From NCBI GenBank assembly GCA_948567375.1, contig OX419756.1, positions 67,001 to 131,000 on the forward strand: a stretch of 64,000 nucleotides of DNA, given 5' to 3'. The translations under genes were made by a program, and so were the position numbers. Position 1 is the first letter of the stretch; every line of letters begins with the position of its first letter. Origin of the DNA: Lunularia cruciata. Lineage: Eukaryota > Streptophyta > Marchantiopsida > Lunulariales > Lunulariaceae. The notes beneath the pieces were generated by a model. It was not told the DNA's origin. It searched no databases and worked only from the letters and a program-made list of their open reading frames with translations. Below, piece by piece: positions 18,863-48,722 of this stretch.

Positions 18863-18867
18863 TAGCC

Positions 18868-19549: not shown

Positions 19550-20799
19550 TGTCATGCCATTTGTAGTTTCACATCTAGATGCCCGGACACTAGAGTTCTA
19601 GTGATAGTAGTTAGAGGCATTTTGGCCATTACTCATAGACTACTTTCCAACGGTCAGATTTCAAGTTTAGGGTACTGACTTCATGGTGGGGCCCACCATC
19701 ACTTGCACCGTCCGCACCGTCGGGTGTGCCATTAGTGGGACCGTTGGGAGGAGACCTAGGTCAAAATTAGGGGTATACCTTGGGAGTGCAGCTCTAGAGA
19801 GCTCACTTCTCTGATGTTGAGCCTTCGGGTTCCTAGCTAGAGTGGACAGAAAGCCGGCAAGCGTCACCTGGAGTCTCTATGCTATAGTGGGTGTGGCTTG
19901 ACTGTAATCAGTGCCTTATTGTTGGAAAGTTGTTGAGGATCAGATCAAGTATTGATCTGAGTTTGATTGATTCAAGTGGTAAATGATCTGATTATTGTGG
20001 CATGTGACAACCCGGCAAATATCACTTTTGTGGTAATTGGGTTAGTAAAGTTTGTTCCCGCAGAGATACGAGTCTGAATTGGTCAAATGCAAAGTCAAAC
20101 AGTAACAATGTAGTTCTTTGTGGTTGCATCTTTAATCTCTTAGGTAGAAACCACACCCAGAAGAGAGTAACAAACACTGATTCGCAGTCTTGTCACAAAT
20201 TAACACTCCATAATCACAACTCCATCAATTCTTTCCAAACAATCTTGATTGTGATGATTTAGGCTCTCCCAAAAATGGCACTTCAATGCAAAACAACTTT
20301 GCTTCAGAATTGTGTTCCACCTCTCCACTGAAGGCACAACTTCCTTGATCAAAATTGCTTCACATCAACTTCGCACTGCACTCACAAATGTAGAATACTA
20401 CCAACACTACAATTCCTCTCAAATCTGTCAAGGCATTGCTTTGATTGCACTTCACTCAGGATCAAACACACAGACTGAAGATCAAGGCTGCTGAATCTAA
20501 CATCCAACAAGCACACTAACTTGCACTTTGAATTTCTCCACACACTCACAAACACAATTACAAAGCTGATATTCGGAATCAAGCTTAAGCAACGAGCACT
20601 GCTTCACAACACTTCACTTTATCTATTCTTAGAAATAATGAGCAGTGAACAACATTTGACTACAAATGCCACTCTTAAATAGTGAAGCAATTGATAGTTA
20701 TCTTCCTACTGCACCTCTTGCTAATGACTCTACAAACCTGCAGATCCAAAATGACAATGCACTTCTTCATATCTGCCTATTCAAATCTCAAATCGGTTA

Positions 20800-23350
20800 C
20801 TAATCCGATCCGATGTCTACTTCTTCTTTGGCTTTCAAACCCAAACCCAAAGTAACTTTACTTCCTACTACTCTGTCCTCGGGTTTCACATCTCCTACAT
20901 TTTCTACCAGATCGAGCAATTCTCTTTCCTGATCTGAAATATCACTAGTGGGTAATCTATCTAACTCTTTTCTCCCGACCCACTCTTCTCTATTGTCTCC
21001 ACTGGCAACTCCGAAGACATCTGCACTCCTACTTCATCGACTTTGGGTTTGGCTCTAAAGTCTTTCCAAAGTCTATCTATCTCCAATTTCACTAAGTCTA
21101 GTCTAATCTCAATACTATCTTCTACTTCTAATGTCTTCCTATCTACACGCGTCTTGAGACTTATCAACAGCGCGTTCAAATCTGTGTCTTTCGCCTATCT
21201 CCTCCTCAACTCCTGCACCAACAACTTCAACTCGTGCAGCCTCGTCTCTTCAATCCGAATGCTAGCCTCTGTACTTAGCATTGCGTTCATTCTGAGGACA
21301 ATCTCCTTCAATGGCTCCAATCTCATCTTCCTTTCACATTCCCGATCTGCAAGCCAATCCTCTCTGTACATCGCCAATTCTGCCTCAAACTTGGCTTTCA
21401 CCGTTTCTTTCTCCTTCTCCTTCTGCTCAATCTTCTCCTCTTGATTACGAAGTAACACTCGTAACCTCTCCTCTTCTCTATATCTTACTGCCAACTCCCT
21501 TTGCCAAAGTTTCTTCTTCTCTTCTACACTCTCCATCACTCTATCGAGTTCTTGTTCCTTCACTACTACCTTCGCCATAGCATGGATAATTTATAATCTA
21601 GAATCAGCAAACTGCTGCTTCAAGATTTCATACTCTACTACTTGTCTCTCCCTTGCTATGTCACTCTTCTTAACAAGTTCCTCTCAATACATCACTTCTC
21701 TCTTCAATCACTTGATTCTGCACTTCTGCCTCCCCTTGCAGTACTTCCCTTTCCTCCTTGCCTCGGGTTATACTCTTCTTCAAATCTCGATAATACTTGC
21801 AAGACAGCCTTCACGTCTGGACATGTCAACTGCATCTCCTTCTTCTTGTGCTCCAACTTCACCAACAACAGCCACACAATCTTCCGCAGGTACTCCACTC
21901 CATTGCTTGCAACTACTTCCTCTTGCGTAGCAATCTCCTTCCTTACTTCTTGTTCACCCGATACTCGCCTCCTCCTCTGCAGTCTTTGTATCGGAATCGA
22001 TGCCTCACTTCTTGAGCTAGCATTTGCTTCTTCCTTCTTCACCTTACTTAGACCTGCTTCACACTTCGCCTTGCGTCTTGAGCAAACTCCCCTCTAAATT
22101 GCAAACTTCTTCTCCTCGGGCTCAGGTATCTCGTCCTCCAACTTTGCATTATCTTCTTCTTCGAGCTCTTCCCAAACTTCTTCTTCTTCTTCCGTAGCAG
22201 CCGGTACCGACATCATTTCTCCACCTTCATCACTGTTGCTACTCGTATCTCCACCTTGCAGCGTGAGCTCCAGTTCTTCCTTGCATTCTGAGTCTTTGGA
22301 ATTGCACTCAGCTTCGCCTTCTGAGTCTTCGTCTTCTGACATGATCACCACCATGCCTCTCCTCGGGTTTCCTGTCTTGGTCTTCCGAGGTCTTGTCTTG
22401 TCTTCGGCTTCTCCTTGCCGACTCCGCTTCTTTGACTTCGGAGTACTTGCTTCTATCTCTACGCTCTTACCCGTCGTTGTGTAGTACTCATCTGTGCTCC
22501 GGATTTGAAGAATGTACTGCTACTCCTCCACATCAACTTCTGTTCTCAAGTCGGGATGGAAGTGAGACACCATTCGATTTTGCTCCACCGAGTTGAGCAA
22601 CTTCAACCCGAGATAGAAGTGTGTTGCAAATGGCACGATGTAGTGTGGAGGCAACTTATCCCGCAAATTCCACACCATCTGTCTTGTCCTTCCATGGAAG
22701 CACCTTGCTCAATTAATCGGTCCTCCTGCAAACAGTTTATGGAAGAACACCGCTTGGTGTCTCATCACATAAGTAGTTCTCTCCGGCTTCAAGATTGTCA
22801 TGAGAGCACTCACAATCCCTCTCTTCACTGGATCCTTGTAACTCTCAACCTTATACCCATTCTTTGTTCTCTTCGAAGAGAAAGCATCTCTCACTTCTTT
22901 AGTCTCTTCTACTATTTCTCCCTTACCCAAGAATGTGGCACCCTGCTCTGCACTTGCTTCTCTCCCGAGCACTAATCTCCAATCCGACTCTGTCCAGCAA
23001 GCCGGATTTCCTCTCTTCCCCTCTTCCTCGGGGCCATCTAGACACTTACTCTTGATAATCTCAGTCATGAAACCTGGAAAATTGACATTCTAGTTCCATG
23101 CCAAGAACGTAATCCAAAGTCGGCTCAAGACTTTGATTCTTGCAATCACATCTAGCCTCCAAATCGCATGATTCCTCACTACAAATTTGGAGTTCTTCTT
23201 TCCTCCTCCCATCTCTCCTGCTTTCTCAATGTCTCTCGGTTTCACTCTCTTGACTTCTCCGCTACACACTAGCGCATCTTCAACTCTATTTCCCTTCCCA
23301 TGATCACTTGCAGGACGACTTCTCAACGGCAAAGGAAAATTGCTCAACAT
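20800..23350 (-). pseudogene. ORF0, type 1, in LTR C
   Basis: The frame starts MLSNFPLPLRSRP, 27 bases after the first T of TATAAAA. The N-terminal domain has RLDVIARIKVLSRLWITFLA, WTESDWRLVLGREA, NGYKVESYKDPVKRGIV, RHQAVFFHKLFAG and an LNLLNLAE-like end. A Glu/Asp/Ser-rich linker (22094-22354) and a Glu/Lys/Arg-rich coiled coil (about 21180-22040) follow. The tail has SDQERELLDL and ends VDIGSD, stop. At least five stops or frameshifts interrupt it, including one after FLAWN and one after FAGGPIN. Length would be ~850 residues. I recognise no known family. Confidence 0.75.
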
Positions 23351-23370
23351 TGCTTCATTGTTAGCCTGAT

Positions 23371-23377
23371 TTTTATA
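23371..23377 (-). promoter_or_regulatory. TATA box of LTR C
   Basis: Element-sense TATAAAA in the context CTCTATAAAAATCAGGC. Its first base is 27 bases before the A of the ORF0 ATG. The same motif and spacing occur in D (28605-28611), H (46492-46498) and K (54921-54927). It is the likely RNA polymerase II promoter of the element. Confidence 0.7.
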
Positions 23378-23764
23378 GAGTTGCGCTTTCTTTGTCTCTC
23401 TTCAATTTGAGCTTCTACCAAGAAATCACACCTCTTGCATGCGCTTGTCACTGTCAATCGTACTTCACGTGTATGGGCTGCTGGTTTTGAACAGTCCCTT
23501 CTTGAATTTCTCGTCCCAAAAAAAGGTTGTTACACTGTCTTTGCCTCAGGTTGAGCTCTCCCCGATACAAAGATTCCTTACTTCAGGTTGTATGCTGACA
23601 CGGCATTTCCGAGTACTTTGCCTTAGGACCCAAAGTCACTTTACTTTGGGTTTCATCTCGAAGACTCTTCTCTTTGCCTTCTTCGGCCATACAGGCGCAA
23701 TCCAACTTCTCTATACACTTCTTCTTCTCTATTTTGAGAAAAAACAACAAATGTGGGCACCACA

Positions 23765-25060
23765 TACCCCCTCCTTCAAATGTGAGCATCCCCGCAAACA
23801 TAGACCTCGGGTGTCTTAGAGACTTCCAAGTCTATGGTCCCATATCTCCAAACTCTCCACCCGTTTACTCGAGTGGCAAAAGGATTGCCCTCCAGGTCTA
23901 CAAGCTGCATGGACCCATTTTCATAAAGATGAAGAACTTGATAGGGACCCATCTATCTCAAATGCAACTTGCTTGGAAAAAATATTTGGCGATTGTCATA
24001 CAACAAAACCAAATCTTCTTCACGTATAGCCACAGGCTTGATATGCTTATTGTGCCTGACTTTCCTCTGTGCTTGTACTTCCTTCGTGGTTTGCATTGCA
24101 TCGTCTCTTTTCTCTTCTAACCACATTAGTTGATAGATCCGAAGATCTTGACTTTCTTCCTCCGACAGTCGTTCTTTGCAAAAAATCCAATATGTCGGTA
24201 CTTCAAATTGAACTGGCAGTATGGGATGCAAGCCATATGTCAAGAAGTATGGAGTTTGTTTAGTTGTAATCTTTTCTGTCGTTTGATATGCCCACAACAT
24301 GGCTGGTAATTTTGTATCCCAGTCATAGGCATAATTGATAGTCACCTTATTCAAAAAATTTCAAAGTAACCCATTCGCCTTTTCCGTTAAGCCATTTGGT
24401 TTTGGGTTATAAGGAGTCGTCTTCCGATGTTTAATCTGAAAGTACTTGGTTAATGCCTCCATTACAAAGTTCAAAAAGTGTGTTCCTTGGTCACTGACCA
24501 ACTCCAGAGGACACCCATATCGGGAGATGATGTTTCAAAAGAAAAATTCCACCACAATTTCAGCATCATCTCTACGAGTTGCTTCAGCTTTGACCATATT
24601 GGTAGCATAGTCAATGCAAACCAAAATGTATCGCTTTCTTGTGACTCAGGTCACTGGTTGAATGGGACCCACGAAATCAATCCCCCATTTCTCAAATGGG
24701 GCCAAAGGGAAAATTGGTCTCAAAGGCCATTGAGAAGTAGCCGTCGGCTTCCCCGTTCTTTGGCAAGCATCACAGCTTCAGATATGAGCATGCACGTCTT
24801 TGTACATTGTAGGCCACCAATACCCTGCCAAAAGTATTCTTCAGAGCATAGTGTCCTCTCCATGCTTCGGAGTGTAAAGATTCAATTACTCCTCCTACTT
24901 CGTATGACTCCAAGCATCGCCAAAGTATTTTGTCTTTGCCCATCTTGAATAAAATGATGTGTTTGAGCTGGTACGGCCCCAATTTCCTGAGAAAGACTGC
25001 CTTTTGCTTTGGGTCCATCCCATCAGGACAATGAAGAGTATGCAGATAATGATATTCTAT
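23765..25060 (-). pseudogene. Polypurine tract and integrase of E3
   Basis: The purine tract occupies 23765-23780. Integrase follows with WMGPYQVLHL-like and VRHNKHIKPVAIREEDLVLL motifs, TPYFLTYGLHPILPVQF, NYAYDWDTKLPAMLWAYQTT, the DFVGPIQ-type core and the zinc-binding start ESYEVGGVIESLHSEAWRGH. Frame breaks occur near 23950, 24355 and 24770. A small deletion near 24830-24840 removes part of the HHCC region. No chromodomain is present. Confidence 0.83.
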
Positions 25061-25188
25061 TGCATACTCCGTACTTTGCATTGCTGATAATTGATACAAC
25101 TCTTTGTCAGGGAAGAGATCATCAATTTCCCACTCCTAATCTTGAGTTTTTAACCTGGACAGGAAGTCCGCATTCAAATGCAAATGTC

Positions 25189-28100
25189 TATGACAACCCG
25201 GCAAATATCACTTTTGCGGTAATCAAGTAAGTAAAGTTTGTTCCCATAGAGATACAAGTCAGAATTGGTCAAATACAAAGCAAATTATTAAATTCAGTTC
25301 TTCTTGAGTTCTTCTTTAGTCTCTCAGGTAGAATCCACACCCAAAAGAGAGTAACAAGCACTCATTTGTAGTCTTGTCACAAATTAACACTTCTTAATCA
25401 CAACTCCTTCAATTCTTTCCAAACAATCTTGATTGTGATGATTCAAGCTCTCCCAAAAATGGCACTTCACTGCAAAACGACTTTGCCTCAGAATTGTGTT
25501 CTACCTCTCCACTGAAGGCACAACTTCCTCCATCGAAATTGCTTCAAATCAACTGCGCACTGCACTCACAAATGCAAAATACTACCAACACTACAATTCC
25601 TCTAAGATTTGTCAAGGCATTGCTTTGATTGCACGTCACTCAGGATCAAACACACAAAATGAAGAACAAGGTTGCGGAATCCAACATCCAACAAGCACAC
25701 TGACTTGCACTTCAAATTTCTTCACATACTCACAAACACAATTGCAACATTGATACTCGGAATCAAGCTTAAGTGACAAGCACTACTTCATAGCACTTTG
25801 CTTTATCTATTCTCAGAATTATGAGCATTGAACAACATCTGACTGTGAATGCCACTCTTAAATAGTGAAGCAATCGACAATTATCTTCCTACTGCACCTC
25901 TTCCTAACAACTCTACAAACCTGCAGATCCGAAATGACAATGCACCTCTTCATATCTGCCTATTCAAATCTCAAATCGGTTTCTAATCCAATCCGATGTC
26001 TACTTCTTCCTCGGCTTTCAAACCCAAACCCAAAGTAATTTTACTTCCTACTACTCTGTCCTCGGGTTTCACATCTTCTACTTCTTCAACCAGATCCAAC
26101 AATTCTCTTTCTTGATCTGAAATTGCACTAGTGGGTAATCTATCCAACTCCCTATCTCCCGACCCACTCTTCTCTAAAGTCTCCATTGGTAACTCCGAAG
26201 ACATCTGTACTCCTACTTCATCTACTTTGGGTTTTGCTCTTATATCCTTCCGAAGTCTATCTATATCCAACTTCACTAAGTCTAATCTAATCGTGATATT
26301 ATCTTCTACCTCTAGTATTTTCCTATCTATACGACTTATTAATAGAGCATTCAAATCTGTCTCCTTTGCCTATCTCCTCCTCGTCTCTTGCACCAACAAC
26401 TTCAATTCGTGCAGCCTCGTCTCTTCAATCCGAATGCTGGCCTCTGTACTTAACATCGCGTTCATTCTGAGGACAATCTCCTTCAATGGCTCCAATCTTA
26501 TCTTCCTTTCATGCTCCCGATCTGCAAGCCAATCCTCTCTGTACATCACCAATCCCGCTTCAAATTTGGCTTTCACAGTTTCCTTCTCCTTCTCCTTCTG
26601 TACAATCTTCTCTTCTTGATTACAAAGTAACTCTCGCAATCTCTCTTCCTCCCTATATTGTACTGTCAACTCCCTTTGCCAGAGTTGCTTCTTCTCTTCT
26701 ATGCTCTCCATCACTCTATTGAGCTCTTGTTCCTTTGCTGCTACCCTTGCCATAGCATGGATAAGTTCTAATCTTGAATCAACAAACTATTGCTTCAAGA
26801 TTTCATACTCTGCTACTTGTCTTTCCCTCTCTATGTCACTCTTCTTAACAAGATTCTCTTGATACATCACTTCTCTCTTCAAGTCTTCAATTACTTGATT
26901 CTTCACTACTGCCTCTCCTTGTAGTACTTCCTTTTCCTCCTCACCTTGGGTTATAATCTTCTTCAACTCTGAGTTCTCTTCTTCTAATCTCGATAACACC
27001 TGCAAGACAGTCTTCACCTTTGGACAAGTCGACTAGATCTCCTTCTTCCTGTGCTCCAATTTCACCAACAATGGACACACGAATTCATACACGGGTGCCA
27101 AATTTGCTTGCAGGGTTACCCATTCGTGTGCCAAATTTGCTTGCAACTACTTCCTCCTGCGTAGCAATCTCCCTTCTTACTTCTTGTTCTCTTGATACTT
27201 GCCTTCATCTTTGTAGTCTTCGTATCGGAATCTACTCCTCACTTCCCGAGCTAGTGGTCGCTTCTTCCCTTGCCTTACTCGGACCTGCTTCACACTTTGC
27301 CTTGCGTCTTGAACAAACTCCCCTCTAGATCGCAAACTTCTTCTCCTCGGGCTCAGGTATCTCGTCCTCCAACTTCCCATTATCTTCTGGCTCGAGCTCC
27401 ACCCAAACTTCTTCTTCTTCTTTCATAGCAGCTACGAGTACCGATGTCATTTCTCCACCTTCATCGCTGTCGCTACTCGTATCTCCACTTTGCTGTGTTA
27501 GCTTTGGTTCTTCCTCACATTTTGAGTCTTCGGACTTGCACTTGGCTTTGCCTTCCAAGTCTTTGTCTCCTGACGCGATCACCACCATGCCTCTCCTTGG
27601 GTTTCCTCTCCTGGTCTTCCGAGGTCTTGTCTTGTCTTCGGCTTCTCCTTGCCAACTCTGCTTCTTCAACTTCAGAGTACTTACTTCTATCTCTATGCTC
27701 TTCCCCATGTTTGCGTAGTACTCATCGGTGCTCTGGATTTGAAGAATGTATTGTTGCTCTTCCACATCGACTTCTCTTCGCAAATCGGGATGGAAGTGAG
27801 ACGCTATTTGATTTCACTCCGCCAAGTTGAGTAGATTCAACCTGAGGTAAAAATGTGCTGCAAATGGCATGACGTAGTGTGGAGGTGACTTATCCCGCAA
27901 ATTCCACACCATTTGTCTTGTCCTTCCATGGAAGCACCTCGCCCAATTAATTGGTTCTCCTGCAAATAGCTTATGGAAGAACACCGCTTGGTGTTTCATC
28001 ACATAAGTCGTTCTCTCCGGCTTTAGGATTGCCATGAGAGCCCTCACAATCCCTCTTTTCATTGGATCCTTGTAACTCTCAACCTTATACCCATTCTTTG

Positions 28101-28994
28101 TTCTCTTCAAAGAGAAAGCATCTCTCACTTCCTGAGTTTCTTCTGCTACTTCTCCCTTACCCAAGAAGGTGGCACCTTGCTCCGTGCCTGCTTCTCTCCC
28201 GAGCACTAATCTCCAATCTGACTCTGTCCAGCAAGCCGGATTTCCTCTCTTCCCCTCTTCCTCGGGGCCATTGAGACACTTACTCTTGATAATCTCAATC
28301 ATGAACCTTGGAAAATTGACATTCCAGTTCCATGCCAAGAACGTTATCCAAAGTCGGCTCAAGACTTTGATTCTTGCAATTACGTCTAGTCTCCAAATCG
28401 CATGATTTCTCATTGCAAATTCGGAATTCTTTTTTCCTCCTCCCATCTCTCCTCCTTTCTCAATGTCTCTTGGTTTCACTCTCTTGACTTCTCCTCTACA
28501 CACTAGCGCATCTTCAACTCTATTTCCCTTCCCATGATCACCTACAGGACTACTTCTCAACGGCAAAGGAAAATTGCTTGACATTGCTTTGTCATGAGCC
28601 CGATTTTTATAGAGTTACACTTTCTTTGTCTCTTTTCAATTCAAGTTTCTACCGAGAAATCACACCTCTTGCATGCACCTATCACTGTCAATCATACTTC
28701 ACGCGTATGGGCCGCTGGTTTTGAACGGTCCCTTCTTGAATTTCTCGCCCCAACGAAAGGTTGTTAGACTATCTTTGCCTCCGGTTGAGCTCCCCCGATA
28801 CGAAGACTCCTTACTTCGGGTTGTATGCAGATAGGGCATTTCCAAGTGCTTTGCCTTAGGACCCAAATTCACTTCACTTTGGGTTTCCCCAAAGACTCTT
28901 CTCTTTGCCTTCTTCGGCCATACAGGCGCAATCCGACTTCTCTATACACTTCTTCTTCTTTATTTTGAAAAAAACAAAAAATCTGGGCACCACA
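25189..28994 (-). repeat. LTR D, type 1, nested in E3 RNase H
   Basis: It runs TGTGGTGCCCAG...GTTGTCATA in element sense, 3.8 kb. Flanks are RNase H of E3 on both sides: ...CATTCAAATGCAAA on the left and AGCTCCCTTCC on the right, which are contiguous in E1 (6361-6390). No polypurine tract or primer-binding site adjoins it, so it is a solo LTR. I see no clean 5-base duplication; four extra bases (TGTC) sit at the left edge. Confidence 0.85.
25983..28584 (-). pseudogene. ORF0, type 1, in LTR D
   Basis: This copy has the best N-terminal domain: 256 open codons (27814-28584), starting MSSNFPLPLRSSP and holding GEMGGGKKNSEFAMRNHAI, RIKVLSRLWITFLAWNWNVN, CWTESDWRLVLGREA, NGYKVESYKDPMKRGI, KHQAVFFHKLFAGEPINWA, CFHGRTRQMVWNL and FAAHFYLRLNLLNLAE. 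After a stop the frame resumes with EEQQYILQIQSTDEYY and an acidic linker with a DTSSDSDEGGEM motif (27325-27783). The coiled coil lies at about 26370-27017, and the tail (25983-26354) has SDQERELLDLVEEVED and ends VDIGLD. No membrane segment or signal peptide is visible. The role is unknown. Confidence 0.78.
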
Positions 28995-30286
28995 AGCTCC
29001 CTTCCTTACTTGTACAGTATATGTGAATGCTTGTAACAACAAGATCCATCTTGCAATTCACCCGGACAAATCTGCCTTCTTGACCAAATGTTGCAATGCG
29101 TAATGGTCAACATAGAAGACAAACTTGTATCTCAACAAGTAGTGGCAAAATTTCTTGCAGGCATACACCCTTCCGAGTGCTTCTCTTTCAATCATCGAAT
29201 AGTTCTTTTTAGAAACTAAAAGTTGTCGGCTAGCATAATACACCGGGTAGTCTTTCTTCTTTTTGTCCTTCTGACTTAAGACAACACCAATGGCCATGGA
29301 CGAAGTGTCCACATATACATGAAAAGGGACGTCCCAATTTGGGGCCCTCATAACTGATGCTTCAACCAGCTTCTTCTTCAACACCTAGAAAGCTTCTTCT
29401 TGATTTGCTTCCTACAAATAGTCTTCGGATTTTTTCAGAAGCTTTGTAAGGGGTGCAGCAAGCACCGCATAATTTGACACAAAGCGTCTATAGTATCCGA
29501 CATGTCCCAAACAGGCTCTCAGCTCCCGGATGTTCTTTGGGGATTCCAAAGCTGCAATTACTTTAACCTTCTTGACATCGACTTCAATACCTCGGCTTGA
29601 CACCCGATGCTCTAGAAGAATTCCTTCCTTCATTGCAAAGAAGCATTTCTCCAGGTGTAATGACAAGCCAGCAAAATGACACCTTTCAAAAGTTTGGCAA
29701 AGGTAATCTAAATGTACATCTCTTTGCCCAAACACACAAAAATCATCAATGAAGACTTCCAAAAATTTTCATAGGAAATCTTTGAAGATTGAATTCATCA
29801 TCCGTTGGAGAGTGGCGGGAGCATTACACAACCCAAAGGGCATTTGATTGTAAGTGAAAGTGCCCCAATCGGTTTTGAATGTGGTTTTATCCTTGTCCTC
29901 TTCTCGAATGGATACTTGATTGTACCTTGAAAATCCATTGAGAAAGCTATAACAAGGATGACCAGCTACTTGATCTAAAATTGTACCAGTAAAAGGGAAG
30001 GGATGATGATCCTTCCTTGTGACTATGTTCAACTTACGGAAGTCTTGCACACTTGGATCTTCCCTATTTTCTTCTTCGGGACAATGACAATGGGGGAAAC
30101 CCATTCACTGCTTAAGACAAGGAAGATGATTCCGGCCCCTAAGTACTTGTCAATTTCATCTTTCACCAAAAGCGAGTACTTCGGGTTCAAGCAGTATTGT
30201 CTCTGCCGAACCGGAACCGCACCTTCAACTAGATCAATCCGGTGTTCTCCAAATTCTTGTGGAATACTTGGCATTTTATCAATAGA
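28995..30286 (-). pseudogene. RNase H and RT of E3
   Basis: RNase H (29058-29384) has FHVYVDTSSMAIGVVLSQKD, YYASRQLLVSKKNYSMIERE and FYVDHYALQHLVKKADLSG. RT (29412-30274) has IDDFCVFGQRDVHLDYLCQT (active-site Asp pair), FTYNQMPFGLCNAPATLQRM, KLNIVTRKDHHPFPF and KYSLLVKDEIDKYLGAGIIF. A one-base deletion at about 30049 shifts the frame inside the VCQDFRK motif. A further stop precedes the linker at 30287. Confidence 0.87.
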
Positions 30287-31050
30287 CTAGGCAAATACAT
30301 CTTGGAATTCTATGAACAGGGCAGTGTATCCTACCGACTCCTCCAAAGTGACTGTCTTCAAAAATTTTAAAATTTTTCCTTCGGTCAATACAACATCTTG
30401 ACAGTCATTGGGGTTGATGACTCCTTCAACGTGGCTTACTTGGCTTAACCTGAGGCGAGCTGCCATCAAACCCCCTTCCTCCAAGTCAGGTTCACCCGAG
30501 GTGAGGTCATATGGATCTTTGTCTTCGACATCCACCTCATAGCATTCCAAATAGTTCACTTGGACTTCATCTTTGGATTTGTCTGAGGACGAAGACGATA
30601 AGTCTTTGGATTTGTCCTCCTCTTCCGACGAACTTGTTTCCCCGAGGTGGGGAACTTTTGTCCAACTCACAGTCACCAGCTTCTAATCTTCGGACAAAAT
30701 GTCCTTGAATTTTAACTTTTGCTAATGCCAATCCACCACAACTTGGGCATTGTACAACCAGGGTCTTCCGATCAACAAAGGGTAACCAGTCTTTGTCACT
30801 GGTCGCAACACAATGTAGTTCAACTTGAAGGGCACCCCTCCAATGATCGTGGTTATGTTTGACAGCATGCCCAAAGGCCGTCTCTTGGTTTGGTCTAAAA
30901 ACTTCAAAACTCAAGGTGTTGGCTCAAACGTATGGTACCCAAGTTGATTTGCAATATCTTTGGTCATGACATTCACACCGGACACCAAATCAATGGGTAT
31001 CAATGTGATCATGCGCCCTGCAATCTCCGCATCCACCTTGTGAGATCCCA
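30287..31050 (-). pseudogene. Linker and protease of E3
   Basis: The linker (30287-30676) is acidic and Ser-rich, with SSSSDKSKDEVQVNYLECYE and GLMAARLRLSQVSHVEGVIN. The protease upstream has LGMLSNITTIIGGVPFKLN, YPLLIGRPWLYNAQVVVDWH and, at the end of the gag-side frame, IPIDLVSGVNVMT. Here the active-site D-L-G-S has become D-L-V-S, which should abolish activity. Confidence 0.82.
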
Positions 31051-33668
31051 AATCTTCTTGTTCAATACGATAGATAGCGGGCAGGTCCTTCTTTGACATT
31101 GACCTCGCCTTCTTGAGTGCCGAATTCAACTGCTTCTTGTACAGCTTGTTATCTTCCCACAATTGCTTAAATGTAACGTTGGCATTTGTGGCTGCCAAAT
31201 CTGCTACAATATTGTATTGGGGTACTCCTCCCAATTTGACTGTCTTTGCCTTTGGCTTTGGGTTTGAAGTCTCTCCATGTTCCATCTTGACTTCGGGACG
31301 CTTCAAAATGGTGACGGGATTGCTAGTGGCCTTAACCCGGGGTTCCTTGGGTTGGCCCACCTCGGCTTGGATCAGACCCTTTACTTTGGATCGGATGTCC
31401 GCTGGAAAAATTGGAGACTTTGTCTTTGTCTCCTCCTCCAAACTCATTTCCCGAGTTTTGAGTAGTGCCTCCTTAAGTTCTTTTTGCAAGGCTTTAGCTT
31501 TGGCTTTTGAGAGGATCTTTACCTCCTTGGCAGAAAGAATTGCCTTTGGGTGCAGTGTCTTTGCCTTTCTAGAAGACGACGAGGTCGTACTCAGTTCTTT
31601 GGGATCACACTTCTTCTTAATAGTGCGTGTCTCAACCTTCAAAATTTCAAGCTCCGACCATTCCCCTTCCGAGGCCGGACTCCCTTCCTGAGGTCCCTCC
31701 TCCTCAAGCGTGATACAATTTACATTTGTATCCCCCTTTGCTTGAATTGCTGCACGCTCAGCGGGGGTCTGTACATATTTTACAGGCGGCTTTGGGTTCG
31801 GTGGGTGAGGACATTGGTTGCCCGTATGCCCCGATCCTTTACAATTTCCGCATAGGGGAACATACCCAATTTGCCTTCTTGGCTCCGGACAATTTGGAGA
31901 CCAATGTCCCATCGAGCCACAATTGTAACAAGCTCCGGGTGCAACATTCTGAGGATGATTCTGGTTGCTCATTGGTGGTCTTTGGGGAGGAGCATTGGGA
32001 TTATACTCCCTTGGTCCAAACCTTGGACCTTGGTACAATGTGCTAGCCTGAGGCTGTACCTTGCATTTGGTACACAACCTCTTTGTCCTTGTCTTGGCTC
32101 CATCCTGGAACCCAATCAATTTGCTGCACTAGGAATGCATTACGAGTATTGCATTCCTTGTTTGCGTGGCCTGACTTGCCACATGCGGTGCACCATACAT
32201 TTGATCTGCCAAATGTTGGGGCCTTCCTTTTATCTTTGGTCCCAATCATCTGGATCTTGAAATCCGAAAACTCATTGATGAGGGCATCCAGCTTGGTATC
32301 CGCCTTATTTACACTCTTTGCTAGAGGAGTCACTGGTTTCTTACCCCCACGTCTTCTTACTCATCTTGGCTTTGATTCTTCTTTGGATTCCAAAGAAGAA
32401 CTCAAAGACGTGGAGGATTCTTCCGAAGAAGGGGATGTGTTGTGTGAAGCTCTCCTTCTGGGCTTCTTGCCTTTCTTCTCCCGATTTCTCCAGTTGCCAG
32501 CAGAGTGAGAGTGGGCCGCTTCATAACGAGCAACATGTTTGAGTACTTTGTCAAGGGAAGTTACATTCCTCTCCCTTGCAAAGATTCAGATCTCTGATGA
32601 AAGTCCACCGAGGAACCAGGTAATAGCTTGGGCATCGGAGTAACCCACCACCCCCGATTGCTTGGGAACTCGGTTCAAGAGTACCATGAACTGCTCAGAG
32701 TAGTCCCTCAACTTCTCCTTCTTGCCTTGCTCTAAATCATTGAGTGCCACAAAGACACTCGTGTCATAGTCAACCTCCCGGAATCGTTCCAAGAAGTTGT
32801 TTCTCAAGTCTGCCCTGTCTACCGGTACAAACCCCTTCTAGGTCACATGGGTGTACCAACTCCGAGCTTTCTTTTGGAGCAAACTTGGGAAAATTCTCAG
32901 TCGATCCGCCGAGTCATGCTCCTTGTTAGCAAAGGAGATGACTTTGAATTCTTTGATGAATTCATCAAGGTCTTTGTCTTGTTCCGTCCCCTTATATTTT
33001 TTATAGGCATGTCGGGTGACGGGCAACAAAGTCATCATTTGATGCACTGGGATTGTCTGAGGTAGTGTTGAATTTGACAGAATTAAGGGATTGGCTGGAG
33101 TTGACGCCGTATTGTCAGCCCAAGGATTCCAATTTGTCAAATTTAGGGTTTAGGGTTTAGGATTCCAATTCAAGGTGGGGTCGTCTTCAACAATTTCTGA
33201 TATGAGGGTGTCGACTTCAACCCGGGTAGAAGGTTTAGGATCAACACCTCCGATGTGTTCTTCAAAATTCCTTCGGGACAACCGAGGAATCGTTTGAGAA
33301 GATGTTGACTCTTCTTCCGTAAGTGTTTGTGCTGTCTTTTCTTGAACAAAGTTCTTTAAGGACACGAATTCCTTTACAGCTCTAGGGGAAGTCGGTGTAC
33401 TTGGCCACATGCATATGTTTGGCCACTTGAGTCTTTCTTCTTCTTGGACTAAGAGGGAGATGCAAAGTAGCCTTGCCAACCGCCTTCGCATTTCTTATGG
33501 TCAAGCTCTCGTAGGGCTTCTTGCACTTCATGAAGGAGTTGAAAGTCCAACTCCTCTCGTTTGGTTTCATCAATAGTGGAGGGGACGTTCAAATGTTTGT
33601 CTTCTTCAAGCTGCAATGCTCGTCTTTGAGCTCTCTCTTCTCGTTGTTCTCTCGATGCAAACATTCAT
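30911..33668 (-). pseudogene. Gag of E3
   Basis: The 402-codon stretch 30911-32119 holds two knuckles, CYNCGSMGHWSPNC (31889-31930) and CGNCKGSGHTGNQC (31811-31852), the gag-protease spacer and the protease start. A third knuckle, CTACGKSGHANKEC, lies upstream in 32043-32333. The central gag domain has ARSWYTHVT (32838-33140), NNFLERFREVDYDTSVFVAL and YSDAQAITWFLGGL. The N-terminus (33449-33664) starts MFASREQREERAQRRALQ and has LDFQLLHEVQEALRELDHKK. A telomere-type insert at 33142-33162 lies between the N-terminal and central parts. Confidence 0.85.
33142..33162 (+). repeat. Telomere-type repeat (TTTAGGG)2 TTTAGGA
   Basis: Three 7-base units sit inside the gag leader of E3 together with a short repeat of GGATTCCAATT on both sides. 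E1 has no such insert at the matching point near 10490. A second telomere-type insert occurs at 56031-56058. Confidence 0.8.
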
Positions 33669-33725
33669 ATTGTGTTGATACCCTGTTTCGAATTTGGCTT
33701 CATATTCTTCCACTTCCAAGATTTG

Positions 33726-33745
33726 TATCCCCGGCAGCGGCGCCA
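33726..33745 (-). other. Primer-binding site of E3 (tRNA-Asp type)
   Basis: Element sense TGGCGCCGCTGCCGGGGATA, lying seven bases inside the 5' LTR end. From my knowledge of plant tRNA-Asp, whose 3' end is close to CCCGGCAACGGCGCCA, the match is near perfect, with a C/T difference in the middle. It is the least decayed primer site here. Confidence 0.85.
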
Positions 33746-33752
33746 AAAATCA

Positions 33753-34115
33753 TGTGACAACCCGGCAAATATCACTTTTGCGGTAATTGGGTAAGTAAAG
33801 TTTGTTCCCATAGAGATACGAGTCAGGGCCGCTAGTTTTGAAAGGTCCCTTTTTGAATTTCTTGCCCCGATGAAAGGTTGTTGGACTGTCTTCGCCTTGG
33901 GTTGAGCTCCCCCCAATACAAAGATTCCTTACTTTGGGTTGTATGCTGACAGGGCATTTCTGAGTACTTTGCCTTATGACCCAAAGTCACTTTACTTTGG
34001 GTTTCATCCCAAAGTCTCTTTCTTTCACCTTCTTCGGCCATACAGGCACAATCCGACCTCTCTATACACTTCTTCTTCTCTATTTTGAAAAAAAACAACA
34101 AATGTGTGCACCACA
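33753..34115 (-). repeat. Deleted type 1 LTR, 5' LTR of E3
   Basis: Only 363 bases remain. The U5 end (TGTGACAACCC through GAGATACGAGTCAG) is joined near 33829 to the U3 side (GGCCGCTAGTTTTGAAAGG through GTGCACCACA). The whole ORF0 frame, the TATA box and most of U5 are gone compared with partner LTR C. The primer-binding site on its left and the TGGCA duplication on its right prove it is the 5' LTR. Confidence 0.87.
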
Positions 34116-34218
34116 TGGCACTTTAGAGTCTATGTATGACTTATGTGTGAGTTGTGCTTCTATTGTGTATGATGTTGACAGCAATGTATGTTGTGTAGCG
34201 ATGTATATATGCACGACA

Positions 34219-38228: not shown

Positions 38229-41200
38229 TGTGACTACCCGGCAAATATCACTTTTGCGGTAATTGGGTAAGTAAAGTTTGTTCCCGTAGAGATACAATTC
38301 AGAATTGGTCAAATACGAAGTCAAACAGTAACTTGTAGTTCTTCTTGATTGCTTCTTTAATCTCTCAGGTAGAAACTACACCCAAAAGAGAGTAATAAGC
38401 TCACAATCTTGACAACTTGTCACAAATACACACACATAATCACAACATAGCAAATTCTGTCCAAACAACTCTTGATTGTGATGATTCAGATTCTCCCGAA
38501 GATGGCATTTCACTGCAAAGAACGATTTTGCCTCAAAATTGTGTTCCACCCCTCCACTGAAGGCACAACTTCCTCAATCAAAATTGCTTCACATCAACTT
38601 CGTGCTGCACTCACAAATGCAGAATACTACCAACACTACAATTCTTTTAAGACCTATCAAGGCATTGCTCTGATGCACTTCACTCAGGATCAAACACACA
38701 GAATGAAAATCAAGGCTGCAGAATCCAACATCCATAGACACATTGGCTTGCACTTCGGAATTCTCCACACACTCACAAACACAAACACATAATTGACAAT
38801 CAGAACCAAGCTCAAGTGACGAGCACTGAAAATAGCACTTTGCTTTATCTATCTTTAGAAATTTGAATACTAAACAACATGAAACTGTGAATGCTCCCCT
38901 TAAATACTGAAGCAAACGGCAGTTCTTCCTACCTATGCACCGCTTCCTAACATCTCTTCCTACCTACAGATCCAAACTGACAATCCATCTCTTCATATCT
39001 ATCTCTTCCTATCTCAAAATTGTTACTTATCCCGATCCGATGTCTACCTCCTCATCGGCTTTCAAACCCGATGATCTTCCTACTACTTCTCCTTCTTCGG
39101 GTCTAGCTAATTCTACTTATTCTTTCACTAGTTCTACCACTTCTACACTAGGAACTACAATTGCACTAAAGAGTGACTTATCTAAATCTTTATCTCCTAA
39201 CCCACTCCTCTCTAATGTGTCAAATAACAAGTCCAATGACACCTAAATTCCTACTTCTGCAACATCGGGTTTCCTCTCCGCCGTCACACTATTCCAAATT
39301 TTCTCTAACTCCAAATTGACTAAATCTAATCTAAGACTAACATTGTCTTCTACTTCTAACATCTTCCGGTCTACACGCCCTCTCAATCAAATCAGCAACG
39401 TGTTCATGTCCACATCCTTGGCTTTTCTCTTCCAAGTTTCCTGCACAAGCAACTTCAACTCATGTAGGCAGGCTTCTTACAATCTCCCTTCAGCCTCCGT
39501 GCTTAAGATTGTTCTCAACTTCCCCACAACTTCTCCCACTGATTCCAACGCATATCCTCAAGAGCGCTCTACCTTCAGTTCTTCAAGATATATCTTCAGC
39601 TTGTCTTCGTACTCTGCAGCGAGCATCTTCTTCTCCTCCGCATACTGTGTACTCTGAAACTCATCACTTCTGACTAGCTCTCGTAATCGTTCCTCTTCTT
39701 CTTGCCTGGCTGCTAACTCCCTTTGCCATGCTTGATCCTTCCCTGCTGCACTCTTCTTCAAGCTGTTCAACTCCTGCTCCATTACGATTGTCATCGCCTT
39801 CAAATGAACATTCTTGATGCGCACATCACTCACTTCCTCCTTCATTTTGCTCAGCCACATTGCCTGCTCCTTTAATTCTTCGGCTTGCCTCTGTAGTTCT
39901 TTCTCTTTAACCTCGTAGCTTTCTTGTAACATTTTGAAGGTCTTCTTCTTCAAGACTTCCTCCCTCCAAATTTCTTCCATTTCTTCATTTCTTTGGACTT
40001 GTTGCTCTTACAACCCCTTCACTTCACTCAGCAAATGCATCACCACCTGCAACTCATTCATCCCCTTCCAACGATCTTGGGGAATTTCTTTCCGATGCTC
40101 CTTCAGTAGCTCCAGCACTAGGGTGACCACTTTTGTCAGATAGGATATCTCACCAAAGCTTTCTTCATCTTCGTTGCCGTCTTCATCTTGAGTCTTCACC
40201 TCCTTCATTGGCTCCTTCATCAGAAGTTGCAATCTTTGTATCTTCAAAGACCCCGTATCTTTACTTTCTTCTTCTTTACCTATTGAACTCGGCTCCGCTG
40301 GATACTCCTCCTTCTCCTCTGGTCTCGGCTTATTCACCACCATAGCTATGCAATGCCTTGTTGTACCAGGTTCTCTGTCCACCATCACCTAACAAGCTTC
40401 ACTGACTGCCACCGATTGCTGAACTTCAGGTTCCCTCTCGCTATCACTTCTAGACTCCCCACTTTTTAAGGTGAGCTCCTCTTCTTTGGATTCCTCCTCT
40501 TGCAACTTGGTTTCTTCTTCAGACTCTGATTCCGATGATGCTTCTCTCACCACCTTTGTATTCTGTATAACCAGTCTTTGAGTCTTCCTTTGAGCGGGAG
40601 GTGACTTTGCTTCTTTGGGTTCACCACATTTCTTCATCTTTGGGCTGGTGACTTCTTTGACCTTCCACTGTCCGGTCTTCAAGAAATGGTCATCGTTGGC
40701 TCGCAGGTGTATCATATATTGTCACTCTTCTTCGTCTACTTCCTGTCTTAAGTTAGGGTGGAAATGAGACGCCATGCAATGACGCTCCTCTACTGTCAGC
40801 AGGTTCAACCCAAAGTAGAAGTGCACTGCAAACAGTGCAAAATAATGCAACGGAGAACCTGCTTGCCAATTGATCACCATCTGCCTCGTTTGGTGGTGAA
40901 AACACTTTGCCCAATTTACCGGAATCCCTGCAAACATTTGGTGGAAGAAGACTGCTTGCTGCATGTTCACAAACATTGTTCATTCTGGCTTGAACATGGC
41001 CATCATTGCCCCCACAATACTTCTCCTAATTGGGTCCCGATAGGACTCCACCTTGTAGCCATTCATAGTTCTCAGAGCAAAGAATGAGTTGCAAATTTCT
41101 GCCGTTTCTTCTGCACCATCACACTTCCGATAGAAGGTGATCCCCGTCGGCTCTCATGCTTCCTTCCCCAATACTAACCTCCAATCCTACTCAATCCATC

Positions 41201-41982
41201 AAGCTGGATTTCCTATCTTCCTTTCAACCCCGAGACCCTCCTCACAATTACTGGCAGCTATTTCTGCCATCACTCTCGAGAAACTGAAATTCCAGTTCCA
41301 CGCTAAGAAGGTAATACAAAGTCTTGTCAAGACTCAATTCTGGCTACTACATATAACCTACAAATTGTGAAACTTTGCACCGCCTGCGCATTGGCCACCT
41401 TCTTTGCCATAATCTGCTCTTGTGTTCTATGACGCTGAAAGATGATGCCTTCTCTTGGACAAGACACTCTAACCCCTTTGAGATTTTGGAAAATTTCACT
41501 CTCAATTGGCTTTTGGACACGCATTACTACATGACGACTACTCAAAGGAATTGGGAATTTACTTGGCATATTCAACTTGTCCCTGCACAATTTCAATCTT
41601 ATATTACCCCAAATTGCAGTCATTCTTCAATCGATTTCAATTTTGACCTCCTCTCTTCCGCGTGTTGATGTCCGGTCACTATCAAGACATGCTTCTTTTG
41701 CCTCTGCCGTTTCTTGAAGTGTACTTTCTTGCCACATACAAAGGTTGTTAAATGATCTTTGTATCTCTTGTACCTTCCAACCCAAAGACGGTGCTCTTCG
41801 GACTTTTTCCGTCGTATCCCTCTTCTGAGTACCTCCATCATTGGATCCGATGTCATCTTCTTCGGATGTCCTCCGAAGTTACTTCTGTCCATTCTTTGTC
41901 CGCAATTTGGCTTCCAGTGCTTACTTCTTCTCTTAAACACTAATAAACAAAGAAAAACAAAAAACATGGGTACCACATCTCT
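38224..41982 (-). mobile_element. LTR G, type 2, solo, TSD TCTCT
   Basis: The LTR is 38229-41977 (3.75 kb) between TCTCT copies at 38224-38228 and 41978-41982. No polypurine tract or primer-binding site adjoins it. The U5 end is like that of the other subtypes (TGTGACTACCCGG, with one change). The U3 side differs from type 1 except at the terminus TGTGGTACCC. A TATA-like TAATATAAGA (near 41603 on the minus strand) is 34 bases before the ORF0 ATG. Confidence 0.9.
39027..41569 (-). pseudogene. ORF0, type 2, in LTR G
   Basis: The frame starts MPSKFPIPLSSRH. N-terminal domain motifs are parallel to type 1: RTQEQIMAKKVANAQAVQSF, CITFLAWNWNFNFS, NGYKVESYRDPIRRSIVGA, NMQQAVFFHQMFAGIPVNWA, CFHHQTRQMV and an LNLLTVEERHCMASHFHPN-like end (40722-40976). 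Acidic Ser/Glu linkers lie at 40389-40715 and 40008-40388. The coiled coil (39558-39980) has MLQESYEVKEKELQRQAEEL and EEERLRELVRSDEF, and the tail ends GLKADEEVDIGSG. Several stops and at least two frameshifts are present. Predicted length is ~845 residues. Confidence 0.75.
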
Positions 41983-43103: not shown

Positions 43104-46100
43104 TGTGACAACCGGGTAAACCCGACAAATATCACTTTTGTGGTAATTGAGTAAGTAAAGTTTATTCCCGCATAGATATGAGTTAGAATTGGTCAAATAT
43201 GAAGTCAAATAGTAACATGTAGTTCTTCTTGGTTGCATCTTTAATCTCCCAGGTAGAAACCACACCCAGAAGAGAGTAACAAGCACTGACTCGCAGTCTT
43301 GTTACAAATTCACACTCCTTAATCACAACTCCATCAATTCCTTCCAAACAATCTTGATTGTGATGATTCAGGCTCTCCCAAAAATGGCACTTCACTGCAA
43401 AATGACTTTGCCTCAGAATTGTGTTCCACTCTTCCACTGAAGGTACAATTTCCTTGATCAAAATTGCTTCACATCAACTTCACACTACACTCGCAAATGC
43501 AGAATACTACCAACACTACAATTCCTCTCAGATTTGTCAAGGCATTGCTTTGATTGCACTTCACTCAAGATCAAACACATAGAATGAAGATCAAGGTTGC
43601 GGAATCCAACATCCAACAAGCACACTGACTTGCACTTTGAATTTCTCCACACACTCACAATTACAAACACAAAGTTGATACTCGGAATCAAGCTCAAGCG
43701 ATGAGCACTACTTCACAACACTTTGCTTTATCTATTCTCAAAATTATGAGCACTGAACAACATAAGATTGCAAATGCCACTCTTAAATAGTGAAGCAATC
43801 TACATTTATCTTCCTAATGTACCTCTTCCCTATGACTCTACAAACCTGCAGATCTGAAATGATAATGCACCTCTTCATATCTGCCTATTCAAATCTCAAA
43901 TTAGTTACTAATCTGATCCAATATCTACTTCTTCCTTGGCTTTCAAACCTGAACCCAAAGTAATTTTACTTCCTACTACTCTATCCTTGGGTTTCACAAC
44001 TCCTACATCTTCTACCAGATCTAACAGTTCTCTTTCCTGATCTGAAATCTCACTAGTGGGTAATCTATCTAACTCCTTATCTACCAACCCACTCTTCTCT
44101 AATGTCTCTAATGGTAACTCCAAAGACATATGCACTCCTACTTCATCAACTTTGGGTTTGGCTCTACCGTCTTTCCAAAGTTTATCTATCTCCAATTTCA
44201 CTAGATCTAATCTAATTGCAATATTGTCTTTGACTTCCAATATCTTCCTATCTACATGAGTTTTGAGACTAATCAACAACATGTTTAAATTTATATCCTT
44301 TGCCTGTCTCCTCCTCGTCTCTTGCACCAACAACTTCAACTCGTGCAGCCTCGTCTCTTCAATCCGAATATTGGCCTTTGTACTCAGCATCGCATTCATC
44401 TTGATTACGATCTCCTTCAATGGCTCCAATCTCATCTTCCTTTCATGCTCTCGATCTGCAAGCCAATTTTCTCTGTACATTGCCAACTCTGCTTTGAACT
44501 CAGCTTTCACAGCTTCTTTTCCTTCTCCTTCTACACAATCTTCTCTTCCTGATTACGAAGTAACTCTCATAATCTCTCTTCTTCCCTATATCTTACTATC
44601 AACTCCCGCTGCCACAGTTGCTGCTTTTCTTCTACACTCTCCATCACTCTATCGAGTTCTTGTTCCTTTGCTGCTACCCTCACCATAGCATGGATGATTT
44701 CTAGTCTTGAATCATTGAACTGCTGCTTCAAGATTTTGTACTCTACTACTTGTCTTTCCCTTGCTAGGTCACTCTTCTTCACAAGTTCTTCTCAATACCT
44801 TGCTTCTCTCTTCAAGTCCTCAATAACTTGATTCTGTACTACTACCTCCCCTCACAATACTTCTCTTTCCTCCTCACCTCGGGTTATACTCTTCTTCAAC
44901 TCCGAGTTCTCTTCTTCCAATCTTGCCAAAACCTGCAACACCGTCTTCACCTCCGGACACATCGACTGCACCTCCTTCTTCCTGTGCTCCAACTTCACCA
45001 ACAACAGGCACACAATTTCTCACAAGTACTCCACTCCATTACTCACAACTACTTCCCTCTACGTAGAAATCTCCTCTCTTACCTCTTCTTCTCCCGATAC
45101 TTGCCTTCTCTGCAGTCGTCGTATCGGAATAGACGCTTCACTCCCCAAGCTAGCATTCACTTCTTCCTTTGCCTTACTTGGACCCACTTCACACTTTGCC
45201 TTGCATCTCGACCAAACTCCTCTCTGAATTGTGAACCTTTTCTGCTTTGGCTCACATATCTTGTCCTCCAACTTTGCATTATGTTCTTCTTCTTCGAGCT
45301 CCACCCAAACTTCTTCTTCTGCTTCTTCTTCTGCAACAGGCACCAATGTCATCTCCCCACCTTCATCACTCTTGCTACTCGTATCTCCGCTTTGCAGCAT
45401 GAGCTCCGGTTCCTCCTCGTGTTCCAAGTCTTCAGACTTGCACTCGGCTTTGCCTTTCAAGTCTTCATCTTCTGACATGATCACCACCATGCCCCTCCTC
45501 GGGTGTCCTCTTCTGGTTTTCCGAGGTCTTGTCTTATCTTCAGCTTCTCCTTGCCAACTCCACTTCTTTCACTTTGGAGTACTTACCTCTATTGCCATGC
45601 TTTTTCCCGTCTTTGCATAGTACTCATCCGTGCTTCGGATTTGAAGAATGTACTGCTGCTCCTCTGCATTGACCTCTCTTCTCAAGTCGGGATGGAAGTG
45701 AGACACCATTCTATTGCACTCCGCCAAATTGAGCAAATTCAACCTGAGGTAAAAATGTGCTGCAAACGACACAATGTAGTGTGGAGGCGACTTATCCCGC
45801 AAATTCCACACCATTTGTCTCGTCCTCCCGTGGAAGCACCTTGCCCAATTGATAGGTTCTCCTGCAAACATTTTATGGAAGAACACCACTTGGTGTTTCA
45901 TCACATAAGTTGTTCTCTACGGCGTCAGGATTGCCATGAGGGCGCTCACAATCCCTCTTTTCACTGGATCTTTGTAACTCTCAACCTTATAACCATTATT
46001 CGTTCTCTTCGAAGAGAAAGCATCCCTCACTTCTTAGGTTTCTTCTGCTACTTCTCCCTTCCCCAAGAATGTGACACCCTGCTCCGCGCCTGCCTCTCTC

Positions 46101-47218: not shown

Positions 47219-48013
47219 TGTGACAACCCGGCAAATATCACTTTTGCAGTAATCGGGTAAGTAAAGTTCGTTCCCGCAGAGATACGAGTCAGAAATGTCC
47301 AGATACAAAGCAAATTAACAATTTAGTTCTTCTTGAGTTCTTCTTTAGTCTCTCAAGTAGAAACCACACCCAGAAGAGAGTAACAAGCACTGACTCGTAG
47401 TCTTGTCACAAATTCACACTCCTTAATCACAAATCCTTCAATTCTTTCCAAACAATCTTGATTGTGATGATTCAGGCTCTCCCAAAAACGGCACTTCATT
47501 GCAAAATGACTTTGCCTCAGAATTGTGTTCCACCCCTCCACTAAAGGCACAACTTCCTCAATCGAAATTGCTTCACATCAACTTCGCACTGCACTCACAA
47601 ATGCAAAATACTACCAACACTACAATTCCTCTCAGATCTGTCAAGGCATTGCTTCAATTGCACTTCACTCAGGATCAAACACACAGAATGAAGATCAAGG
47701 CTGTGGAATCCAACATCCAACAAGCACTCTGATTTGCACTTCAAATTTCTCCAAACACTCACAAACACAATTGCAAAATTGATACTCGGAATCAAGCTCA
47801 AGCGACGAGCACTACTTCACAGCACTTTGCTTTATCTATTCTCAGAAATAATGAGCACTAAACAACAATTTCCTGTGAATGCCACTCTTAAATAGTGAAG
47901 CAATCGACAGTTCTAACAACTATACCATTCTACAAAAACTGTTCTAACCTGCAGATCCGAAATGACAATGCAACCTTTCATATCTGCACCTTCAAATCTC
48001 AAATCTATTACCA

Positions 48014-48325: not shown

Positions 48326-48722
48326 GAATACACTATCTACACATTCAATTTGTAACCCACTTTCCCCTAATCACTCATGTTACTAACCCAAAGACACTTA
48401 CTGTCAGATCCTGCACTTCAGGTTTATTCACTACTGTTACTTCTCCTTCAATTTCTATCATATCTTCAATCAGAACTGAAATTGAAGTCATAGGTATCCT
48501 AACTATCTTCTTTCTCTACTCTAACTTCCTCTAATCCCTTTGGCAAAACTCCCCAAGTCACCTTCATTGCACTCCGAGGTCCGGCTACCTCTGATTTAGT
48601 CATCTTCATCTTGAGGCAAAGTCATGTGAACCCAAAGTCATGTAAACCCGAAGTCCGAAGTATGAAGTCACATTGACCCGAGGCACATCTACTCCAGAAA
48701 CTTTAAATGCTTGTAACTTCTT

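Follow-up and report, generated by a model that had tools for sequence, protein, structure and literature searches.

A Ty3/gypsy retrotransposon family of Lunularia cruciata with a long, selected reading frame inside its long terminal repeats

The genome of Lunularia cruciata contains a Ty3/gypsy retrotransposon family in which a long open reading frame (ORF), here called ORF0, lies inside the long terminal repeat (LTR) and has been under selection as a protein. The family is present in a 64,000-nucleotide stretch of assembly GCA_948567375.1 (contig OX419756.1, positions 67,001 to 131,000 of the forward strand), hereafter the window, and in copies across the genome. ORF0 measures 857 codons from its first methionine and about 811 from the second. 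The explanation that we favour, and regard as reasonably probable, is that ORF0 is an accessory gene of the family carried within the 3.78-kb LTR, most likely in U3. Plant LTRs normally hold control sequence only. They are treated as such and genes are sought between them, whereas roughly two thirds of this LTR is protein-coding.

The window element that carries ORF0 lies on the minus strand (Table 1). An earlier note, made from the letters of the window alone, had taken its LTR C for a genuine LTR, and this is borne out by TG...CA ends, an adjoining polypurine tract (PPT), a TGGCA target-site duplication (TSD) and a primer site beside the partner LTR. The note also described LTR C as largely reading frame. 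ORF0 is indeed there, but this copy is broken by stops and frameshifts, and the open frames are found elsewhere in the genome. The 5' LTR corresponds to LTR C bases 1-72 and 3465-3763 (plus-strand order). Because it matches both LTR C ends with a 7-base overlap, it is read as a probable deletion product that would have lost about 3.4 kb, ORF0 included. Within the window, ORF0 of this element is found in one LTR only. Since it lies in pieces in LTR C and the middle is gone from the partner, the window alone could not prove that ORF0 is LTR-encoded.

The genome (565.77 Mb, of which the eight large contigs met make up 558 Mb) was searched with a natural 631-codon ORF0 stretch, which gave 29,277 first-look candidates, the best 70 of them scored. 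Five of the 70, query included, have no stop in the matched stretch. Twelve form six pairs spaced 9,930-9,951 bp apart on one strand, and the four pairs that were read are complete elements with ORF0 at the same place in both LTRs, the intact-copy check that the earlier note had proposed. Their LTRs are 3778-3796 bp long and diverge within each element by a Kimura two-parameter distance (K2P) of 0.026-0.041. The matched 5-bp TSDs are CTTGG, GCAAG, AGTGC and GGGAT. The primer binding site (PBS) of the window element recurs after the 5' LTRs (L031, L033, L035 and L036), some with one or two bases changed, and a PPT like its own precedes the 3' LTRs (L030, L032, L034 and L037), one of which has an altered start. 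The Ty3/gypsy hallmarks (TG...CA LTRs, 5-bp TSD, PBS and PPT) are thus in place in all four and in the window element. One of the eight paired LTRs has an uninterrupted 878-codon ORF0 frame from stop to stop, and the other seven are broken. Two ORF0 matches, G000:C15:711514 and 731491, lie on one strand at a distance of 19,977 bp, roughly double the LTR-plus-internal spacing, and may belong to a tandem element.

A second search, with the 3' end of the LTR, returned 5,637 first-look candidates, the best 40 of which were scored; 20 neighbourhoods were read and the ends of 19 LTR copies displayed. Eleven of the 19 are solo LTRs, called by the lack of a PBS or PPT alongside; seven are 5' or 3' LTRs and one (L020) is a tail match only. 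Read by eye, all 11 solo LTRs have perfect 5-bp TSDs outside TGTGG...TGTCACA: CAGTT (L009), GACAT (L010, second LTR base changed), TTATG (L015), CCGAG and, for a second copy, CGGGC (L016), CATTT (L017), ACTCA (L019), GTTGA (L021), GTCTA (L022), GTCCT (L023) and AATAC (second copy in L028). L013 and L012 have the TSD ATCAC in common, at K2P 0.045, and are two LTRs of one interrupted element. L026 and L029 are two long LTRs 5.86 kb apart and 94% identical (K2P 0.060), with no TSD established; their element appears to be inserted in the ORF0 region of another copy's LTR (L026 1-227, L029 3840-4251). At L011, L020 and L024 the match is confined to the final ~1.03 kb of the LTR. Twenty-one long LTRs can be aligned over their whole length; L013 and L018 among them show a gap of about 100 bases.

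Selection on ORF0 was measured in these 21 copies. The set includes two element pairs and leaves aside L014 (middle missing), L027, the second copies in L010 and L020, other partial LTRs and the short types L011, L020 and L024. In the ORF0 frame, the Nei-Gojobori method gives a mean nonsynonymous divergence (dN) of 0.106 and a mean synonymous divergence (dS) of 0.595, with a median ratio of 0.177 and dN below dS in all 210 pairs, which are not independent of one another. The two shifted frames have median ratios of 0.886 (dN below dS in 185 of 210 pairs) and 1.068 (65 of 210). Mismatch at codon positions 1, 2 and 3 is 0.126, 0.106 and 0.258, and the ORF0 register holds 119 stops in 17,836 codons, where the other two frames hold 1,630 and 980. 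Pol of the same family has a median dN/dS of 0.222 in 19 pairs, with 0.694 and 0.870 in its shifted frames. Past protein-level purifying selection on ORF0 has been about as strong as on pol, and since many ORF0 copies have decayed, the true constraint should be stronger than the measured one. By part, dN/dS is 0.19 in the N-terminal domain, 0.31 in the acidic linker, 0.21 in the coiled coil and 0.32 in the tail.

The window also contains a diverged LTR lineage (38229-41977, about 56054-59704 and parts of 60624-63465) with ORF0 at the same place. Its ORF0 is 53-60% identical to that of the main lineage in the N-terminal part and about 38-39% identical in longer C-terminal matches. Between the lineages, dN is 0.26-0.34 and dS 1.44-2.30 in three open pieces, and a fourth piece is saturated.

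The place of ORF0 in the element can be described from both sides. The pol frame of L026 runs to within 11 bases of the 3' LTR, with the pol stop codon at the PPT start. There is no room at that point for an internal extra gene. In the complete elements ORF0 lies past the PPT and inside the LTR; should the promoter lie downstream of it, this would be U3, where sag lies in mouse mammary tumour virus (MMTV). All 29 long LTRs have a box some 678 bases from their end, TATTTAAG in 26 and TACTTAAG in three. The same box is found in 11 LTR tails, ORF0-poor short types among them, as TATTTAAG in eight, TACTTAAG in two and TATTAAAA in one. The last ~580 bp are the best conserved part of the LTR (mismatch 0.06-0.08 vs 0.12-0.21 elsewhere). 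This tail and little else is common to the ORF0-poor short LTRs, which supports a tail made of promoter plus R-U5.

In the explanation that we favour, the element RNA would start downstream of ORF0, at the conserved TATTTAAG box. ORF0 would then be present once per RNA, near the 3' end, and every round of reverse transcription would copy it into both LTRs. Its most likely origin would be an upstream move of the U3 start, which is set by the PPT, past an extra 3' gene of a kind that plant gypsy elements often carry. The product might help the element to spread, perhaps by countering silencing or by aiding trafficking, although this is a guess. A conserved GTGAGT at about LTR position 3400 (L022, element orientation), downstream of the TATTTAAG box, is a possible splice donor for a sag-like spliced RNA.

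Several observations weigh against this explanation. The downstream TATTTAAG box is a consensus match only, and a second conserved TATA-like box, present in 28 of the 29 long LTRs, stands 27 bases before the first ORF0 methionine and might be the start site of the element RNA or of a separate ORF0 mRNA. ORF0 is broken in most copies inspected, namely in seven of the eight paired LTRs and, with at least one in-frame stop each, in all 21 aligned ones. Short-LTR relatives have multiplied without most of ORF0, and hence some elements could do without ORF0 in cis. No relative of ORF0 was found outside the host genome, and its descent from a 3' extra gene is something that we infer. Finally, the LTR library matched only 50 of 24,000 random bases, and LTRs of the family may be rarer than match counts suggest.

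The strongest rival, which we take seriously but consider somewhat unlikely, is a stand-alone cassette in which ORF0 has its own promoter within the LTR, at the TATAAAA-like box, and uses the LTR poly(A) site, so that every LTR, solo ones too, is an independent ORF0 gene. In 25 of the 26 copies that can be read for both this box and the second methionine, the first methionine follows the box by 27 bases. Two LTRs of the diverged lineage have a TATAA 34 bases ahead of the matching methionine, and a third has one 32 bases ahead of an ATG. The stretch between the two methionines has a dN/dS of 0.59, no better than the control frames (0.75 and 0.56). This weak constraint is leader-like and favours the second methionine as the start, and 21 of the 26 copies have no ATG between box+31 and that methionine. 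The first methionine, however, occurs with its MxSxFPxPL motif in the diverged lineage too, and this recurrence favours it as the start; a TATA 27 bases before it would leave almost no leader. In addition, three diverged LTRs do have ATGs between TATAA+31 and the second methionine.

A fuller version of the cassette, put forward only tentatively, would make each LTR, solo included, a complete gene with an upstream TATA, an ORF0 of about 811 codons from the second methionine and its own poly(A) site, the resulting ORF0 pool serving relatives in trans. If this were true, the accessory gene would stay when recombination deletes the element body, and a dispersed ORF0 pool would exist in the host genome. 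It would amount to a trans-acting factor, encoded by a parasite, that outlasts the usual route of purging.

Plant elements with an extra gene ahead of gag are known. ORF0 could be a first cistron, with the RNA starting upstream of it and ORF0 lying in R/U5 before gag as a leader gene held by a very long R. The conserved TATA-like box before ORF0 and the eORF-5' classes of plant elements described in passages of PMC6317226 fit this arrangement. We nevertheless judge it improbable: the best conserved part of the LTR, common to the ORF0-poor short LTRs, is downstream of ORF0 and has its own TATA-like box, neither of two short LTRs scanned contains a TATAWA box, and R would be about 3 kb long.

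That ORF0 belongs to a different transposon, inserted into the LTR, is very improbable, even though passages of PMC6317226 describe the extra genes of plant elements as thought to be acquired independently from several sources. The earlier note had named a nested insertion and a transposase as the findings that would overturn its proposal. Among the LTRs fetched, no ORF0-sized insert with its own TSD was seen, nor any LTR with joined ORF0 flanks and a single target copy. ORF0 occupies one and the same place in 21 long LTRs and again in the diverged lineage, and is in both LTRs of all four elements; the short LTRs retain its C-terminus and so are not empty sites. No transposase model matched ORF0 in the Pfam scans, and it evolves as a coding gene. 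A non-coding artefact, that is, frames open by chance or composition in a decayed repeat, would suit the many broken copies and the richness of the protein in E, K and R, but can practically be dismissed given the ratio of 0.177 against 0.89-1.07 in shifted frames, stops that are 14-fold and 8-fold rarer than in the other frames, and a protein kept between lineages at dS above 1.4.

The earlier note had divided the ORF0 protein into an N-terminal domain, an acidic linker, a coiled coil and a tail, and composition and a heptad scan agree with this. The N-terminal part is of mixed charge, and residues 329-379 form an acidic stretch (21 of 50 are D or E). Heptad signals at or above the 99% level of shuffled sequences were obtained for windows from 490 and 525 (L022 piece) and from 35 and 70 (L019 piece). 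Two AlphaFold models, with a predicted local distance difference test score (pLDDT) of 35.6 for the first and 49.0 for the second (predicted template modelling score 0.50), are both helical and of low confidence, and the second had no fold-search match at E 0.001. The product is probably an oligomeric accessory protein with a helical N-terminal domain, an acidic linker and a coiled coil, as far as models and composition indicate.

The database searches that the earlier note had recommended gave no relatives. Pieces of 266 and 631 residues had no match in 5.8 billion proteins at 0.001 and 0.01; the search needs shared 5-residue words and could miss a fast-evolving relative. As a control, pol searched in the same database found 5,234 relatives at 1e-10 among 7,966 scored, which indicates that plants are represented there. 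Nothing was found in PDB up to E 1 or in Pfam above cut-off, and the weak Pfam matches, ELL (E 0.0025) and DUF7784 (E 0.03) among them, were rejected as composition. The models PF10536 (plant mobile domain), PF04195 (Transposase_28) and PF03078 (Athila ORF-1) matched none of 21 N-terminal pieces (E up to 10) nor the 631-residue piece (E up to 1); as HMMER filters drop most matches above about 0.1, a remote relation to these families could have escaped notice. No superantigen model was among the Pfam matches, ORF0 and Sag not having been compared directly.

The closest known layout is that of MMTV sag, a known U3 gene according to passages of PMC3621094. The ORF0 family would resemble it in anatomy, with a gene in U3 of the LTR. 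The two differ in that sag belongs to a mouse betaretrovirus, follows env and encodes about 320 residues, while ORF0 belongs to a plant Ty3/gypsy family, follows pol and encodes about 810-860 residues without a Pfam match above cut-off. Long LTRs also host ORFs in bat betaretroviruses, one of 123 codons within the 3' LTR, as passages of PMC3621094 report; these are short, the passages contain no selection test, and the authors judged one U3-overlapping ORF not legitimate.

Extra ORFs (eORFs) of plant Ty3/gypsy elements include a plant mobile domain in Ogre, Transposase_28 in Retand and Athila ORF-1 (PMC6317226, in passages). ORF0 is like them a long accessory ORF (at least 250 codons) outside the polyprotein, and such ORFs often lack known domains, according to the same passages. 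It differs by lying inside the LTR, at a place relative to pol where plant elements often carry an extra gene. A gypsy lineage of Phalaenopsis likewise has an added protein gene, an ORF for an AlkB-type m6A demethylase (PMC9289625, in passages). That protein has an AlkB domain and tested activity, and the passages do not place its ORF in the LTR; ORF0 has no such match. PMC3726317 and PMC12371157 were considered as precedents for an ORF in an LTR and set aside, their passages concerning other matters. In line with the earlier note, which knew of no such plant gypsy family, no described case of an ORF in a plant LTR was found in a literature search of open-licence papers. The element class and the gene position relative to pol are known; what sets the family apart is that its gene lies inside the LTR, is long and has been selected.

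Plants would hereby gain a layout best known from MMTV sag. The meaning of a solo LTR changes, because it can retain a gene, and a shift of the PPT past an extra 3' gene is suggested as a general route for genes into LTRs. A direct test becomes possible by looking for LTR-internal selected ORFs across plant genomes.

The family is Ty3/gypsy (gag-pro-RT-RH-INT), with complete elements of about 13.7 kb. Pieces of L026 matched the Pfam models Retrotrans_gag, RVT_1, RT_RNaseH, Integrase_H2C2 and rve in the gypsy order; protease PF13650 matched weakly (E 0.2) and both rve matches are below their cut-offs. The chromodomain that a chromovirus would carry after its integrase was not matched in L026:9075-9854, which extends to the pol end. 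With regard to OTA/Tat, which has an additional RNase H domain (aRH), only one RNase H region was matched in the L026 pol pieces, which come from a broken copy, and no aRH-specific model is known in the library. Pol comes closest to proteins of the liverwort Riccia sorocarpa, with 67-71% identity in the first four matches.

Lunularia cruciata is a complex thalloid liverwort whose genome has been enlarged by Ty3/Gypsy bursts, according to passages of PMC9985172, in which no LTR-encoded ORFs are described. In a random sample, four of 60 stretches of 400 bp matched the family, covering 1,169 of 24,000 bases (~5%), one match being only 41 bases long. The idea that the ORF0 family alone doubled the host genome is unsupported by this sampling, and the family is one contributor at most.

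Table 1. Features of the window element and of other LTR copies of the family in the window
Feature	Position	Strand	Remarks
Ty3/gypsy element	20003..34115	minus	TSD TGGCA on both sides, PBS, PPT, two LTR ends; nested D-type LTR inside
TSD TGGCA, left copy	19998..20002		
TSD TGGCA, right copy	34116..34120		
3' LTR (LTR C)	20003..23764	minus	3,762 bp; TGTGG...TGTCACA in element orientation
ORF0, decayed copy	20800..23350	minus	conserved first Met to conserved tail ...VDIGSD; stops and frameshifts
PPT adjoining 3' LTR	23765..23780	minus	...TTTGAAGGAGGGGGTA on minus strand
PBS adjoining 5' LTR	33728..33745	minus	TGGCGCCGCTGCCGGGGA (minus strand)
5' LTR remnant	33753..34115	minus	363 bp, without ORF0; 7-base overlap at presumed deletion join
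gag/pro part of internal region	30911..32119	minus	zinc knuckle PF00098
Second long ORF0-bearing LTR (D)	25191..28994	minus	266-codon open stretch of N-terminal part at 27817-28614
Third long ORF0-bearing LTR	43119..46885	minus	
Solo LTR, diverged lineage	38229..41977	minus	TSD TCTCT; ORF0 diverged and broken
Second LTR of diverged lineage	56054..59704	minus	ends approximate; ORF0 pieces, e.g. 58713-59216
Short-LTR type	3074..4946	minus	1.87 kb; C-terminal ORF0 only; 119-codon open stretch 3869-4225
Short-LTR type	47219..49103	minus	ORF0 C-terminus in 118-codon open stretch 48017-48370; imperfect TSD CCCTT/CCCTC

The earlier note had seen the LTR C arrangement again in its LTRs D, G, H, J, K, L and M, letters that cannot be matched to window copies with certainty. 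This stands for the four long ORF0-type LTRs of Table 1 other than LTR C and fails for the short types, which keep only about 90-120 C-terminal codons. A matching TSD was looked for at the ends of LTR 25191-28994 and not found. Further ORF0-type LTR pieces lie at 49932-52364, 52989-54534, 59711-60577 and 61211-63465, and 49932-60577 looks like a plus-strand ORF0-type LTR in pieces, apparently split when further LTRs from the same family inserted later.

Short-LTR copies are found at 3074-4946, from 11075, from 34942 and at 47219-49103, and measure about 1.9 kb in the two with both ends seen. They have the last ~1.05 kb in common with the long LTR, together with those last ORF0 codons; the rest of ORF0 is absent. 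The idea that they represent the state before ORF0 entry was rejected, as ORF0 C-terminal codons are still present, and their sequence marks them as a reduced or recombined form rather than an empty site. The region 3074-19549 has the tandem look (LTR, internal, LTR, internal) that unequal recombination leaves. At 60624-61210, an LTR appears to be down to its two ends (492 and 93 bases), like the deleted 5' LTR of the window element, and judging from these two sequences the LTR middle has been lost repeatedly.

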